DNA of 64,000 nt, from the NCBI GenBank assembly GCA_030606285.1, contig JAUWGS010000005.1, forward strand, positions 66,716 to 130,715. Reading direction: 5' to 3'. Below are positions 27,905 to 61,678 of the stretch, piece after piece; the first letter of the stretch is position 1; every line of letters starts with the position of its first letter. The notes under the pieces are model-generated. The model ran no database searches and was not told the DNA's origin. It saw nothing but the letters and a program-made list of their open reading frames with translations. The DNA is from Planctomycetales bacterium (GTDB taxonomy: Bacteria; 4484-113). The translations under genes were made by a program, and so were the position numbers.

Positions 27905-27980
27905 TGGTGGAGCAGAGGGGATTCGAACCCCTGACCTTATCCACGCCAAGGATACGCGCTACCAACTGCGCCACTGCCCC
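27905..27980 (-). tRNA. tRNA-Ala (anticodon GGC)
   Basis: A complete 76-nt cloverleaf on the minus strand. Acceptor GGGGCAG pairs with CTGCTCC, including the G3-U70 wobble that identifies alanine tRNA. The anticodon loop TTGGCGT sits on stem TATCC/GGATA, giving anticodon GGC for GCC codons. The T arm has GTTCGAATC. The 3' ACCA is encoded. The 5' end lies three bases after the rsfS stop codon, so it is probably cut from a shared transcript. Confidence 0.95.
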
Positions 27981-56350: not shown

Positions 56351-57445
56351 CTATTCCAACAACTCATACTGCGTCGTGCGGCGCTGGGGCGTGAAGCCGG
56401 CCTTTGAGATCAACCGGCGGAGTTCCGCTTCGGTCATCGCGTAACTCGTCCCGGCGGCGGCGACGACGTTTTCTTCGAGCATCGTGCCGCCCATGTCGTT
56501 TGCGCCGAACATCAGCGCAAGCTGCCCCACCTTCGGCCCCATCGTTACCCACGACGCCTGCAAATTCTCAAAGTTACTAAGATACAACCGCGCCACCGCA
56601 AGCGTCCGCAGGTAATCCAGCCCACCCACAGCCGTGCCGCCCAGCGCGGTGTTCTCCGGCTGGTAGGTCCAGCAGATAAACGCGGTGAAGCCCCCCGTTT
56701 CGTCCTGCAATGCGCGGATGCGCTCCAGGTGCTCGATGCGCTCGGCGAGCGTCTCCACATGCCCGAACATCATCGTCGCCGTAGTGCGCATCCTTAAGCC
56801 GTGCGCCTCACGCATCACGCCAATCCACTCGTCGGCGGTGCACTTGTGCGGCGACACTTCGCTGCGCACGCGGTCGGATAAAATCTCCGCGCCGCCTCCG
56901 GGCAGGCTGTCCAGCCCCGCCTCGCGCAGTCTGCTTAACACCTCGCGCACCGGCATCCCGAAAAGCCTGCTAAAATGCACAACTTCCGGCGGCGAGAACG
57001 AATGCAGCGTCGTTTTAGGAAAGTCGCGCTTGATGCAGCGCAACAGGTCTAAATACCACTCGAACGGCAGCGAAGGATGGTGCCCGCCCTGCATCAATAT
57101 CTGCTTCGCGCCAAGCTCCACTGCCTCGGTGATCTTCGCCCTTATCACCGGCTCGTATTGATTGACGTACGCATCCTCGTCGCCGATATCGCGCGAGAAT
57201 GCGCAGAAGCGGCAGCGGCTGATGCAGACATTCGTGTAATTGATATTGCGGTCGACGACGTAGGTCACAACTCTTGGCTCAACACGCTTAAGCCGCAACT
57301 TGTGCGCCGCGCGCCCAAGCTCATGGATATCGCCCGCACGCAGCAGAAGCTCGCCTTCTTCGCAGCTCAGGCGTCCGCCAGCCACCGGTTTTGAGCAGAG
57401 CTTTCCGGTTTCGTCAATCGGGAGGCTGCTCGGCTTATCCGACAT
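56351..57445 (-). CDS. mqnC: cyclic dehypoxanthinyl futalosine synthase
   Basis: The 364-residue radical SAM enzyme cyclises dehypoxanthinyl futalosine in menaquinone synthesis. The CX3CX2C cluster motif is NINYTNVCISRCRFCAF. Family marks are TTATMMFGHVETLAERIEHL, QASWVTMGPKVGQLALMFGA and NDMGGTMLEENVVAAAG. Length is typical. It follows mqnA by five bases and ends the operon. Confidence 0.95.
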   Translation of the reverse strand: MSDKPSSLPIDETGKLCSKPVAGGRLSCEEGELLLRAGDIHELGRAAHKLRLKRVEPRVVTYVVDRNINYTNVCISRCRFCAFSRDIGDEDAYVNQYEPVIRAKITEAVELGAKQILMQGGHHPSLPFEWYLDLLRCIKRDFPKTTLHSFSPPEVVHFSRLFGMPVREVLSRLREAGLDSLPGGGAEILSDRVRSEVSPHKCTADEWIGVMREAHGLRMRTTATMMFGHVETLAERIEHLERIRALQDETGGFTAFICWTYQPENTALGGTAVGGLDYLRTLAVARLYLSNFENLQASWVTMGPKVGQLALMFGANDMGGTMLEENVVAAAGTSYAMTEAELRRLISKAGFTPQRRTTQYELLE

Positions 57446-57450
57446 GCAGG

Positions 57451-58215
57451 CTACTTCGCGAGCTTAGCGAGCTTGAGTTCATGCACCTTCTGGCGGAAAA
57501 ACTCGAGGAAATCCAGATCGCGGGGCGAAAGCCGGAAGTGCAGCGCCTTGCCGAAGTAATCCACCAGGGCCTTGTGGCTCACCTGCCATTCCCGCTCCGC
57601 GAACTTGCACAGCCCGTCCCAGTCTTCCTCGACTTTGGCGTAGGCTTCCTCCAGTATCCCCACAAGGTCATCCGAGACCGGCTCGCTGCCCTGCCACATT
57701 GCAAACACGACCGGCAGCTTGAACAGCTTGTCAATCAGCGCGGCAATGTCGTAGGCATAATGGTACGTGAACTGCGGATGGAAATTCTGGTCGCCGATGA
57801 TCACGCGGCCGATTTTTGGCTGGAGCTTCGCGCGGACGTCTCTGGCAGGTGTAAACTTCACGCGCTGTTGTCGTTCGTTGAAGATAATGCGGGTCAGCGC
57901 GTTGCTGGTTAGGCTGGCCGGGTCCTCTTCAACCACGGTCACCTTATCCAGCGGATCCTGCGAGTAGATCATCACCGTTATCACCCGGCCCTCGGCAGCC
58001 ACGCAGAGGTCGGTTATCCGGCTGCGCAGCTTCGCGGCGTACACGAATGACGAAGTGAGGGCTGCATCGAGCTTCCCCTCCCGCATCAGGTGGAACAGCT
58101 CCGCCGGCATCCCCCACGTAGGCTTCACGCGCGGGTGGTCCTGCAGCCCGTGAACGAGCGGCAGCGCATTGAGAAACGGTAACAGTCCAACTCTAAACTT
58201 CTTGGGCATCTTCAT
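57451..58215 (-). CDS. mqnA: chorismate dehydratase
   Basis: The 254-residue protein of the MqnA/MqnD family dehydrates chorismate, the first futalosine-pathway step. It has RVGLLPFLNALPLVHGL, GKLDAALTSSFVYA and a periplasmic-binding-like two-lobe layout with VIIGDQNFHPQF and FAMWQGSE. It lies between mqnE (22-base overlap) and mqnC, which favours MqnA. ATG 58215 or 58209. Confidence 0.92.
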   Translation of the reverse strand: MKMPKKFRVGLLPFLNALPLVHGLQDHPRVKPTWGMPAELFHLMREGKLDAALTSSFVYAAKLRSRITDLCVAAEGRVITVMIYSQDPLDKVTVVEEDPASLTSNALTRIIFNERQQRVKFTPARDVRAKLQPKIGRVIIGDQNFHPQFTYHYAYDIAALIDKLFKLPVVFAMWQGSEPVSDDLVGILEEAYAKVEEDWDGLCKFAEREWQVSHKALVDYFGKALHFRLSPRDLDFLEFFRQKVHELKLAKLAK

Positions 58216-59308
58216 CCACCGGTTCGTATTCGCGCATATCCCGATAGAGCGCGTCGCGCATAATCGGTTTCAGCCCGGCGCCCCTAATGATACCAGCAAG
58301 CTCGCTAATGGTCACCCCTTTGGGCGCAGTGGCTCCAGCAGCGTGATAGATTCGCTCATACACTACAGTGCCGTCCACGTCGTCCGCGCCCCAGAGGAGC
58401 ATCACCTGCGCGAGCTTCAACCCGTATTCCACCCAGTAGGCCTTGATGTGGGGGAATTTGTGGAGCGCGACGCGCGACGCGGCCACGTGGCGCAGATCCT
58501 CCACGCCGGTGGTGAACTCGCCGCCCAACCGGTTCCCCACCGGATGGTACGCCAGCGGTATGAACGCCTGAAAACCCCCTGTCTCATCCTGCAAGTCGTA
58601 GAGCTGGAGCAGATGTTCAGCTTTCTGCTTGGGCGTCTCCACATGGCCGTAGAGCATCGTGGCGTTCGTGGGAATCCCCAGCTCGTGCGCCGTGCGGTGC
58701 ACAGCGAGCCATTCGTCTCCCGAAATCTTGTCCGGGCAAATCTGTAAGCGCACTTCGTCAGCGAATACCTCCGCCCCTCCACCGGGCATCGCATCCAGTC
58801 CCGCGTCTTTTAGGTCGAGGAGCGTATCGCGCACGCTCATACCTGACAGCTCAGCCATCCATGCTACTTCCACTGCGGTAAACGCCTTTAGCTGCACCTC
58901 CAGGAAGGCTTCGCGCAGTGTCGTGAGAATCCCCCGATAGTATCCGTAATCCGCCAGCTCGCGCGGCGGGATTGCGCCAACAATGTGAAACTCCCGCACG
59001 TCCTGAACACCATCGGCTTTCAGGCTCTCCACAATCTCGTCCGGCTGCAGAAAATAGGCATCGTCATCTGTAGCATCAGCGCTGAAGGAGCAGAACAGGC
59101 AGCGGTTCTGGCAGATGTTCGTGTAGTTTATATGCCGGTTTGCCACGACATACGTGCGGTCGCCGTGCAGCTTCATGCGAATTTCGTGCGCCAGCCCGCC
59201 CAGCCAGTGAAGGTCGGCGTCGGTGAGTAGGAACACGACTTCATCCGGCGTCAGCCGCTCGCCGGACAGGGCCTTGCGCTCGATGGTTGATTGGACGGAG
59301 TCCCGCAC
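58193..59308 (-). CDS. mqnE: aminofutalosine synthase
   Basis: The 371-residue radical SAM enzyme makes aminofutalosine from the MqnA product and S-adenosylmethionine. The cluster motif is HINYTNICQNRCLFCSF. Other marks are DRTYVVANRHINYTNIC, DAMPGGGAEVF and IPTNATMLYGHVETPKQKAE, which separate it from MqnC. The GTG start lies eight bases after TAGAAT and has no ribosome binding site. It is the first gene of mqnE-mqnA-mqnC. The nucleosidase step (MqnB or MTAN) and MqnD are not in the window. Confidence 0.94.
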   Translation of the reverse strand: MRDSVQSTIERKALSGERLTPDEVVFLLTDADLHWLGGLAHEIRMKLHGDRTYVVANRHINYTNICQNRCLFCSFSADATDDDAYFLQPDEIVESLKADGVQDVREFHIVGAIPPRELADYGYYRGILTTLREAFLEVQLKAFTAVEVAWMAELSGMSVRDTLLDLKDAGLDAMPGGGAEVFADEVRLQICPDKISGDEWLAVHRTAHELGIPTNATMLYGHVETPKQKAEHLLQLYDLQDETGGFQAFIPLAYHPVGNRLGGEFTTGVEDLRHVAASRVALHKFPHIKAYWVEYGLKLAQVMLLWGADDVDGTVVYERIYHAAGATAPKGVTISELAGIIRGAGLKPIMRDALYRDMREYEPVDEDAQEV

Positions 59309-59414: not shown

Positions 59415-60539
59415 ATGAAACTCACCATCTCCCAGGAAAAGTTGAGCCAGGCGCTCAACCTTGTCAGCAAGGCGGTCTCCAGCCGCACGCTGAACCTGGT
59501 TCTCGCTCACATCCGGTTCCAGGTGACGAAGAAGAGCCTGACGCTCACCGGGTCGGACGGCGATTTCACGATCGAACACACGGTCGATACCGAGGGAGAA
59601 CGTGAAGGCGCGCTGCTAGTGCCCGCGCGACTCTTCGTCGACCTCATCACGAGGCTGCCCAAAAAGGACGTGACGCTGGAGCGCCAGGACGGGATGCTCA
59701 AGATTGTAAGCGGCTACTCGGATTACTCCATCAACATCCTGCCCGACGAGAACTTCCCCAGCCTTCCGCTGTTCGAGGAAGGTAAGCTGGCGCAGCTTCC
59801 CGCCGGACTGCTGAGGAGCGCCCTGGGGCGAACCACCTTCAGCGCCCTCAAAGACCCCAGCGGGACCACGAGCCACTATACGCACGGCGTGCTGCTCAAC
59901 TTCCACGAAGACAACCTGGACATCGTGGCAACGGACGGGCACCGCCTGGCGCTGGAGCGAATGGACAATCCCGCGCCGGAAATCAAAGACCGCAGCCTGC
60001 TGGTACCCACTACAATCACCGAGGAGCTAAGGCGGGCACTGCCGAGCGAAGAGGATAAGACCGTCGAGATCTACTTCCTGAGCAACCAGGTCTTCTTCAA
60101 GTTCGATAACAGCGTCTTCGGCGGATCGCTCTTCGACATCAAGTACCCCGATTACCTGAAGGTAGTGCCCAAGGAAACCAAATCCGTCGCCAACGTAAAC
60201 CGCAGCGCGTTGCGTGAGGCGCTTCAGCGCGTCCTCATTGTGTTTAAGGTAAAGGAGCAGAATCCGGTCGTCCGGGTGGAGACCAGCGGTGACAGCCTGG
60301 TCATCTCAAGCGAATCCCAGGATGTTGGCAAAGGCGTCGAGGAAATGCCGTTCACTCAGGGCTCGCCTTTCGCGGACATACGCATCGCTATCAACCCGGC
60401 GTATCTGGCTGATGTTCTCGCGGTGGTGGACGCGGATACCGTTGACCTGCACTGGACGAGCGAAGTGAACCCGCTGAAGCTGGAGCTTCCGGAGAAGCCC
60501 GGTTACACTTATATTGTGATGCCCATCCGGATGGACTAG
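59415..60539 (+). CDS. dnaN: DNA polymerase III beta sliding clamp
   Basis: The 374-residue protein forms the ring clamp that tethers polymerase to DNA. Three repeated clamp domains are seen, with LVSKAVSSRTLNLVLAHIRF at the start, VATDGHRLALERMD in the middle and the C-terminal YTYIVMPIRMD, matching the (M)PxR(M/L) end. The open frame extends upstream to 59223, but the ATG has a perfect ribosome binding site. dnaA is not next to it, an unusual placement. csrA-like follows after 48 bases. Confidence 0.96.
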   Translation: MKLTISQEKLSQALNLVSKAVSSRTLNLVLAHIRFQVTKKSLTLTGSDGDFTIEHTVDTEGEREGALLVPARLFVDLITRLPKKDVTLERQDGMLKIVSGYSDYSINILPDENFPSLPLFEEGKLAQLPAGLLRSALGRTTFSALKDPSGTTSHYTHGVLLNFHEDNLDIVATDGHRLALERMDNPAPEIKDRSLLVPTTITEELRRALPSEEDKTVEIYFLSNQVFFKFDNSVFGGSLFDIKYPDYLKVVPKETKSVANVNRSALREALQRVLIVFKVKEQNPVVRVETSGDSLVISSESQDVGKGVEEMPFTQGSPFADIRIAINPAYLADVLAVVDADTVDLHWTSEVNPLKLELPEKPGYTYIVMPIRMD

Positions 60540-60587: not shown

Positions 60588-61070
60588 TTGCTGGTACTTA
60601 CGAGAAAGCCTGGCGAACGTGTCTTGATCGGCCCGTCGATCAGGATGGAGTTTGTTGGCGTAGACGCAGAACATCAGGCTCGTCTGGGTTTTTCCTCAAC
60701 TCAACACCTTAAGCTGGTCTCGCCGGACATTTCGCTTGATTGCGATATGCCTTCTGGTAGCCCCGATGAGCCGGTAAAGCACGAAGTCGCCCTTGCGGTC
60801 GACCAGAAGGTCAAGGTGAACGATGTGATTGAAGTCACGGTGGTCGCAGTAAAAGGCGAGCAAGTCCGCATCGGGCTGGAAGCCCCCGACGAAATCTACA
60901 TCTTTCGCGAGGAAGTGCACGCTGAGATCCTGCAAGAGAGCATTCAGGTGGCGCAGAAGGAAAGTGAACTCACCGGCGATGAGCTTCCGCGTCCTCCCTT
61001 CGGCCTTGCTCAGGGCGGTGAGCCAGCCGAACCGCCACGGGACATCGAAGACGAGCCGCCCGCTGACTAG
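60588..61070 (+). CDS. CsrA-family protein with two tandem CsrA folds
   Basis: The 160-residue product from TTG 60588 begins LVLTRKPGE like canonical 61-residue CsrA, but two CsrA-like units follow. Unit 1 (1-48) keeps the beta1 LTRK, while its beta5 reads KLVSPD. Unit 2 (64-117) has a beta1 HEVALAVDQK without the TRK, but keeps VKGEQVRIGLEAP and IFREEV with Arg107 equal to Arg44. A Pro/acidic tail of about 43 residues follows. Only one composite RNA face (beta1 of unit 1 with beta5 of unit 2) retains the key residues. The frame is open to GTG 60564 and TTG 60552; start uncertain. Confidence 0.85.
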   Translation: MLVLTRKPGERVLIGPSIRMEFVGVDAEHQARLGFSSTQHLKLVSPDISLDCDMPSGSPDEPVKHEVALAVDQKVKVNDVIEVTVVAVKGEQVRIGLEAPDEIYIFREEVHAEILQESIQVAQKESELTGDELPRPPFGLAQGGEPAEPPRDIEDEPPAD

Positions 61071-61081
61071 CGCTCCCGCAT

Positions 61082-61678
61082 CTACTCGATTGCGCCGAGC
61101 AGACCCGGCAACCCGCACTCCTTAAGCAGGCGGTCAAGCAGGTTCAGCGGCATGCCAACAACGTTAAAGAAATCACCGCTTATCCTTCGCACCAGGACAC
61201 CACCGACTCCCTGAATTGCGTAAGAGCCAGCCTTGTCCATAATCTGGGCTTTCTCAATGTATATATCCTCTTCCGCTGGCGAGAGTGAGCCGAACGTGAC
61301 ATCCGTGCATTCCGCATCACAACGGCACTTACCGCGACAGTGCACCGCCAGTCCCGTGACCACAAGATGCGTGCGGTCATAGAGCCTGCGCAGTGTGGCG
61401 CGGGCATCGTCCAGGCTCGCAGGCTTGCCGTAGATGCGCCCGTCGGCGTGCACAATCGTATCCGCGGAGATGACCACGGCTTCCGGGTGCATCCGGGAGT
61501 GGGTCTCTCCCTTGCTGCGCGCGGCGTCGCACGCAAATCGAATCGCGCTGTCTCTGTCAACTGGCTTAGAGTAATCAGGCGCAAGATCCGTCTCCGGATC
61601 AATAGCCTTAAAATTCAGGCCGATGCCGCGCAGAACTTCGCGCCGTCGCGGTGACCGTGATGCGAGCACTACTTCCAT
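61082..61678 (-). CDS. maf: Maf-family nucleoside triphosphate pyrophosphatase
   Basis: The 198-residue protein hydrolyses non-canonical or surplus nucleoside triphosphates. It begins [20 protein letters not shown], the nucleotide-binding Maf signature, and has [18 protein letters not shown] with the catalytic Asp, and [13 protein letters not shown]. An unusual Cys-rich loop ([11 protein letters not shown]) lies near 114-124. The ATG is seven bases after TATAAT and has no ribosome binding site. It is divergent from mnmG. Confidence 0.93.

Follow-up and report, generated by a model that had tools for sequence, protein, structure and literature searches.

CsrA/RsmA-type proteins bind RNA on a face that is formed by strand beta1 of one protomer and strand beta5 of the opposing protomer (PMC7652899), and two equivalent RNA faces are a trait of typical CsrA members, rather than of the Pfam family PF02599 as curated. 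What becomes of these faces when two CsrA units are joined in one chain is the question raised by a gene of the Planctomycetales bacterium represented by assembly GCA_030606285.1 (contig JAUWGS010000005.1). The whole stretch of 64,000 nucleotides that was analysed is referred to below as the window.

A csrA gene with two units in one chain

The gene (60588-61070, + strand) is a single open frame of 160 codons, uninterrupted by stops, whose translation opens with L-LVLTRKPGE; with the TTG start codon taken as Met this becomes MLVLTRKPGE, the canonical CsrA start being MLVLTRK. The encoded protein (160 aa) matches the Pfam CsrA model (PF02599) in two stretches, with a whole-protein E-value of 1.4e-23 and 83.1 bits (cut-off 27), and scores above the cut-offs of two NCBIfam csrA models (NF002469 and TIGR00202). 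The first-pass annotation of this DNA had described two CsrA-like units in one chain, a description with which the two Pfam stretches agree. No second CsrA was found in the window genome (G000; 2.3 Mb, 91% complete), in which the tandem is the sole CsrA.

Unit 1 comprises a beta1-beta2 region (residues 1-15, MLVLTRKPGERVLIG; 60588-60632, + strand), in which the RNA-contact strand with T5 and R6 is retained, and a beta3-beta5 region (residues 16-54; 60633-60749, + strand), which has no C-terminal helix and carries Ser-Pro-Asp at residues 45-47 in place of Arg44-Glu-Glu. Unit 2 starts with a beta1-beta2 region (residues 63-78; 60774-60821, + strand) in which TRK is lost and, by column reading of the alignment, Ala-Leu-Ala is found at residues 68-70; its beta3-beta5 region and helix start (residues 79-117; 60822-60938, + strand) retain G96, A99-P100, R107 (the equivalent of Arg44) and E109, with Arg107-Glu-Glu kept as a motif. 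The replacement in unit 1, as well as the loss of TRK and the retention of Arg107 in unit 2, had been pointed out earlier, and that description proved accurate. The end of the C-terminal helix and a Pro/acidic tail make up the last 43 residues (118-160; 60939-61067, + strand), of which Ser118 is the equivalent of the FliW-contact residue Asn55.

The dnaN gene, encoding the DNA polymerase III beta subunit according to Pfam (59421-60539, + strand), lies 48 nt upstream of csrA and is possibly co-transcribed with it, and a convergent maf-like gene (61082-61678, - strand; Pfam Maf, E 4.6e-48) lies 11 nt downstream. Beside dnaN, a futalosine-type menaquinone cluster is located at 56351-59308 (- strand), where two CofH/MqnC-type radical SAM genes flank a VitK2_biosynth (MqnA/MqnD-type) gene. 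The sole Rfam match in the window is a tRNA gene at 27908-27980 (- strand).

Distribution of the tandem

A full-length tandem CsrA is present in nine of the ten sampled genomes of the window's class, and the tenth (77% complete) gave no CsrA match. When a profile built from these nine tandems (A1) was run over 385 genomes, the nine were the only full-length matches; the CsrA matches listed for other genomes span one unit, and no full-length tandem match was obtained among the approximately 375 genomes outside the class. Within the window's genus, the second member (G001) encodes a tandem protein that is 64% identical and sits in the same dnaN-csrA-maf context. The window protein found no match among plasmid records, and no description of a tandem CsrA was found in the open literature searched. 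Multiplicity of another kind was seen in two genomes of one family (G144 and G281), each with at least 10 CsrA matches.

Asymmetric conservation of the two units

Residues that never vary among the nine tandems are L2, V3, T5, R6, G9, E10 and G15 in unit 1 and V86, G96, A99, P100, R107, E109 and I114 in unit 2. At position 44 of unit 1 an Arg is found in none of the nine (0/9), and the second face is therefore broken in all of them; judged by sequence, no single chain has two equivalent faces. The beta1 Arg of unit 2 is lost in four of the nine (G000, G001, G008 and G009), that is, in the window's genus, in family f4 and in one of the f3 genomes; SRK or TRK is kept at this place in family f2 (G003-G006), and SRQ is found in the other f3 genome (G007). 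Arg44 of unit 1 was probably lost first, the decay of beta1 in unit 2 having followed later in some lineages. Relatives with arginines on both faces, which would speak against the first-pass annotation, were not encountered in this survey: some keep the beta1 Arg of unit 2, none has Arg44 in unit 1.

The same asymmetry is visible in the overall degree of conservation. Mean pairwise identity among the nine tandems is 0.71 in the beta1-beta2 region of unit 1 and 0.52-0.57 in the beta3-beta5 region of unit 2, compared to 0.25 and 0.30 in the other halves (beta3-beta5 of unit 1 and beta1-beta2 of unit 2, respectively); along the chain of ordinary single CsrAs, identities are 0.59, 0.39 and 0.46. 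Between the two members of the window's genus, dN is 0.035 (residues 2-15) and 0.121 (residues 79-117) in the kept halves, and 0.27 (16-62), 0.41 (63-78) and 0.42 (tail) in the other parts, at a dS of 0.57 to 2.8 that is high and uncertain. The tail is poorly conserved across the class (15% mean pairwise identity); it is alike in both genus members (PPR-[DE]-x-EDEPP), a likeness that does not extend class-wide. The suggestion of the first-pass annotation that the tail may add a partner site finds no support here.

Because the beta1 and beta5 strands in a CsrA face come from opposing protomers, the kept halves of the tandem are those of one face. Arg44 has been reported as critical in CsrA, the R44A protein being defective in RNA binding (PMC7652899). 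R6 of unit 1 and R107 of unit 2 are both invariant in the nine tandems, and it is from the geometry known for the CsrA dimer that they are placed on a shared face. We read this conservation as pointing to an intramolecular pseudo-dimer that has a single RNA face.

Predicted structure

An AlphaFold2 model of the window protein, computed with five relatives, was of moderate confidence (pLDDT 69.6, pTM 0.56), with pLDDT values of 73-87 across most of the two-unit core and strands in both units. In unit 1 the predicted strands comprise residues 18-25, 31-37, 41-45 and 50-54, and there is no helix; the single helix of the model spans residues 108-128, and the tail is disordered (pLDDT <50 at 129-152). 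Residues 62-118 of the modelled unit 2 superpose on the CsrA structure 2bti_B with an rmsd of 1.6 A over 57 residues. The structure prediction that the first-pass annotation had proposed as a check thus places, at moderate confidence, a CsrA-like unit 2 beside a beta domain formed by unit 1. The model gave no readable inter-unit distances, so that the shared RNA face is an inferred one. In a Foldseek search with the model, CsrA chains top the list, with no E-value below 0.09. VIA-align placed S-layer DUF1608, FHA and TIFA structures above the CsrA chains (Z up to 7.5); these were rejected as common beta-sandwich arrangements of low identity.

Tandem CsrA proteins on viral contigs

A separate family of tandem CsrA proteins was found on the scanned viral contigs (L033/L089, L090, L091, L092 and L039/L093), located at 10001-10396 in L089 and at the same offset in L090, L091, L092 and L093. 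Here, too, unit 1 has kept the beta1 Arg and has no Arg44 (ITDE or VTDD); in unit 2 the beta1 Arg is gone and VHREE is kept. The viral tandem matches Pfam CsrA in two stretches (E 2.2e-20); since a Foldseek search with its model did not retrieve CsrA, its identity as a CsrA rests on Pfam. No match to it was found among phage records, and the genes nearby include endolysin-like and CI-like repressor matches. A third architecture, in which a unit cut before beta5 is followed by a complete CsrA, is present in L030 and L031 (2001-2300) and in L094 (10001-10342). All tandem types have a common polarity, with beta1 contributed by the first unit and beta5 by the second. Low identity and different spacing, rather than a tree, suggest that the viral tandems arose independently of the class tandem.

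Flagellar context and FliW

In one genome of family f3 (G007, L085; Pfam-checked), the tandem csrA ends a flagellar operon in the order flgK, flgL, DUF6470, fliW, csrA, and the same order is found in the other f3 genome (G009, L087). This module is likely to be the ancestral setting of the tandem. FliW, FlhA and flagellin co-occur in six class genomes (G003, G004, G005, G007, G008 and G009) and were absent from four (G000, G001, G002 and G006). Neither fliW nor flagellin was found in the window genome at its 91% completeness; the window's genus, in which csrA follows dnaN and not a fliW/flgK-flgL operon, has lost flagella, FliW and flagellin. The class flagellins (L175-L193) are very large, with open frames of approximately 900-1140 codons, and each f2 genome carries several copies of them.

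In Bacillus subtilis, the change of CsrA Asn55 to Asp leads to deficient FliW binding, and one FliW suffices for inhibiting a CsrA dimer (PMC6529632). The equivalent residue of the tandem by our numbering, 118, is Asn in four of the six genomes with FliW, and is Ser or Gly in all three tandems from genomes without FliW (Asn in 0/3).

Flagellin leaders

In twelve of thirteen flagellin leaders from the six flagellated tandem genomes, the Shine-Dalgarno (SD) sequence is held in the ANGGAN hexaloop of a hairpin that is closed by a C-G pair and has a stem of 5-10 bp; this count leaves out L189, a fourteenth, divergent Flagellin_N gene without such a hairpin. Across the 12 aligned hairpins, 93.8% of the cells are paired and both partners have changed in six of the eight pairs; a covariation score of 0.731 was obtained, compared to 0.228 when shuffled and at most 0.144 when slid. 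A covariance model of this hairpin (R1) was run over the class. Its top matches are mostly flagellin starts, together with L220 (G007:C84), an SD hairpin of this type in front of what sequence reading identifies as a FliS-like chaperone gene, which suggests a wider flagellar regulon. In the non-flagellated class genomes R1 found nothing below an E-value of 0.3, and neither G000 nor G001 has a significant SD hairpin. In the window genome the best matches have E-values of 0.3 or worse; the top one (L201) was rejected, as by sequence reading it lies inside a coding sequence, and with regard to autoregulation no ANGGAN hairpin was seen on reading the csrA leaders of G000 and G001.

For comparison, 30 genomes from other families, all with a CsrA of one unit, each contributed one flagellin leader. 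In 18 of these 30 leaders an upstream "tether" ANGGAN hairpin stands 15-63 nt before the SD (most at 20-33 nt), an arrangement expected in 0.6% of shuffled leaders, whereas it was found in one of the 13 tandem leaders (Fisher test on leaders, p = 0.002); conversely, an SD hairpin of at least 5 bp occurs in 12/13 tandem leaders and in 5/30 single-CsrA leaders (p = 5e-6). Both tests treat leaders that are non-independent within one genome and within the class, concern a single clade on the tandem side and use thresholds set after the first leaders had been seen. When genomes rather than leaders are counted and a stricter 5-bp criterion is applied, the SD hairpin is present in 6/6 tandem and 4/30 single-CsrA genomes (p = 1e-4), and the tether in 1/6 and 13/30, respectively, a difference that is not significant (p = 0.37). 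Further ANGGAN hairpins are present upstream in four tandem leaders (L175, L177, L179 and L180), the nearest at a distance of 61 nt from the SD site and the others at 104-138 nt, and L177 has three near-identical copies (GGCAC-A[AC]GGAG-GTGTC) approximately 40 nt apart. A strict claim of one site per leader was dropped because of these additional hairpins.

Canonical CsrA bridges sites that are 10-63 nt apart, and full repression of glgC requires both CsrA faces (PMC7652899). The contrast between the two sets of leaders fits the needs of a CsrA that is unable to bridge two sites, on the evidence of one clade; since the flagellated tandem genomes all come from one class, the leader architecture may represent a single event that coincided with the tandem.

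A probable one-faced CsrA and the alternatives

We consider it probable that the tandem is a fused CsrA dimer with one RNA face, which represses translation by binding an SD hairpin and so occluding the SD, and has FliW as its antagonist in the flagellated relatives. Units 1 and 2 would fold onto each other as protomers do in a CsrA dimer; unit 1 would contribute beta1 and unit 2 beta5 to the intact face, the opposite face (unit-2 beta1 with unit-1 beta5) having lost its arginines. Such a chain would bind one ANGGAN hairpin at a time, and repression would come from sitting directly on the SD hairpin instead of anchoring upstream and then reaching the SD. Gene order and leaders suggest flagellin mRNA as the target and FliW as the antagonist in the flagellated class members, with perhaps one FliW per tandem chain, because the C-terminal helix is present in unit 2 only. 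In the window's genus, the same face may serve some other mRNA after the loss of flagellin and FliW. Sequence asymmetry with its conservation, distribution, gene context and leader architecture with its covarying SD hairpins are the well-supported elements of this account. Its core, a pseudo-dimer left with intact strands only in unit 1 for beta1 and in unit 2 for beta5, had already been proposed in the first-pass annotation, and the class invariants, the dN values, the viral tandems, the AlphaFold2 model and the leaders all agree with it. The further proposal that such a protein would escape titration by multi-site sRNAs does not follow, as single sites could be filled one by one and only bridging with its cooperativity is lost; the partner gene seen in the class is fliW, not an sRNA.

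Three other readings have to be weighed. The leader architecture (SD hairpin, no tether) may be a lineage trait of the flagellin genes that has nothing to do with the tandem, either with a tandem that does not bind these hairpins or with a one-facedness that did not shape them. The single clade is in keeping with this, as is the occurrence of an SD hairpin of at least 5 bp in 5/30 single-CsrA leaders; we nevertheless regard it as unlikely, given that the loop and closing pair fit the CsrA consensus (C-ANGGAN-G) on a covarying stem, that the class-wide model search is topped mostly by flagellin starts and one FliS-like gene, and that each of these genomes has one CsrA match.

Somewhat less probable is an exchange of units between two tandem chains, giving a four-unit particle with two composite faces that could still bridge, so that the fusion would serve only to set the stoichiometry. 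The conservation pattern is compatible with such a particle because each composite face would still pair beta1 of unit 1 with beta5 of unit 2, and natural CsrA protomers do interdigitate (PMC7652899), but AlphaFold2 builds a single-chain core at moderate confidence and the flagellin leaders of the class are mostly without the tether that bridging would use (1/13 against 18/30).

It also seems improbable, to a slightly greater degree, that in the window's genus the protein is left over from the lost flagellar system, is decaying and has no current role in RNA binding. Although FliW, FlhA and flagellin are absent from the three members of the window's family, the genus has no significant SD hairpin in either genome and the FliW-contact Asn is replaced, the halves of the kept face show the lowest dN between G000 and G001 (0.035 and 0.121, at the dS of 0.57 to 2.8), REE and TRK are intact and the dnaN context of the gene is kept. 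This pattern of substitution indicates that the RNA face is still under selection in the window's genus.

A fusion of two adjacent csrA genes by sequencing or assembly error, or a chance occurrence, can be dismissed, because the genus mate has its 64% identical copy in the same context and seven further class genomes carry the tandem, in all nine with the asymmetry conserved, and the window gene itself is one stop-free frame.

Comparison with known systems and significance

The tandem resembles the CsrA/RsmA family (E. coli CsrA, B. subtilis CsrA, RsmE; PF02599) in that both units match the CsrA domain, in the RNA-contact residues kept in beta1 (T5/R6) and beta5 (R44), and in the ANGGAN hairpin at the flagellin SD and the fliW neighbour of its relatives. 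It differs from it by two units per chain and one predicted RNA face instead of two, with unit 1 having neither Arg44 nor the C-terminal helix and unit 2 in some cases without the beta1 Arg. With the Hag-FliW-CsrA module of B. subtilis (PMC6529632), the class shares the flgK-flgL-DUF6470-fliW-csrA order in family f3 and an SD-overlapping CsrA-type site in its flagellin leaders, whereas its CsrA is fused as a single chain, the hairpin encloses the SD itself and most leaders have no upstream tether; in the window's genus FliW and flagellin are absent altogether. RsmN/RsmF of Pseudomonas (PDB 4KJI and 4K59) have a CsrA-family fold and give a weak match to the window protein in sequence and fold, but they are single-unit proteins with a rearranged fold, according to the PDB title, and not tandems.

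Comparable, too, are CsrA dimers engineered to carry R44A in one of their chains, which have one intact RNA face in a dimer-like body (Mercante et al. 2009, cited after PMC7652899). One intact face, predicted in the tandem, and an expected loss of bridging are common to both; the tandem is natural, fused and conserved in a class, with targets that have apparently adapted. That the class swapped a two-faced dimer for a one-faced chain, with its flagellin leaders switching in step from tether plus SD to a lone SD hairpin, that a fusion of like asymmetry came about separately in viruses, and that one lineage kept the protein after the loss of flagella and FliW, is a scenario to which we give about an even chance.

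The need for the second face of CsrA and for bridging has so far been probed with engineered half-dead heterodimers. The tandem would represent a natural case that extends through a class, with one face lost and targets that have apparently changed accordingly, and with an independent viral parallel in addition. It offers a monovalent CsrA for comparison with bivalent ones, and a possible 1:1 building block for the stoichiometry of FliW, CsrA and flagellin. The rule predicted from it, that where there is no bridging the SD itself must be in the hairpin, could be examined in any CsrA lineage.
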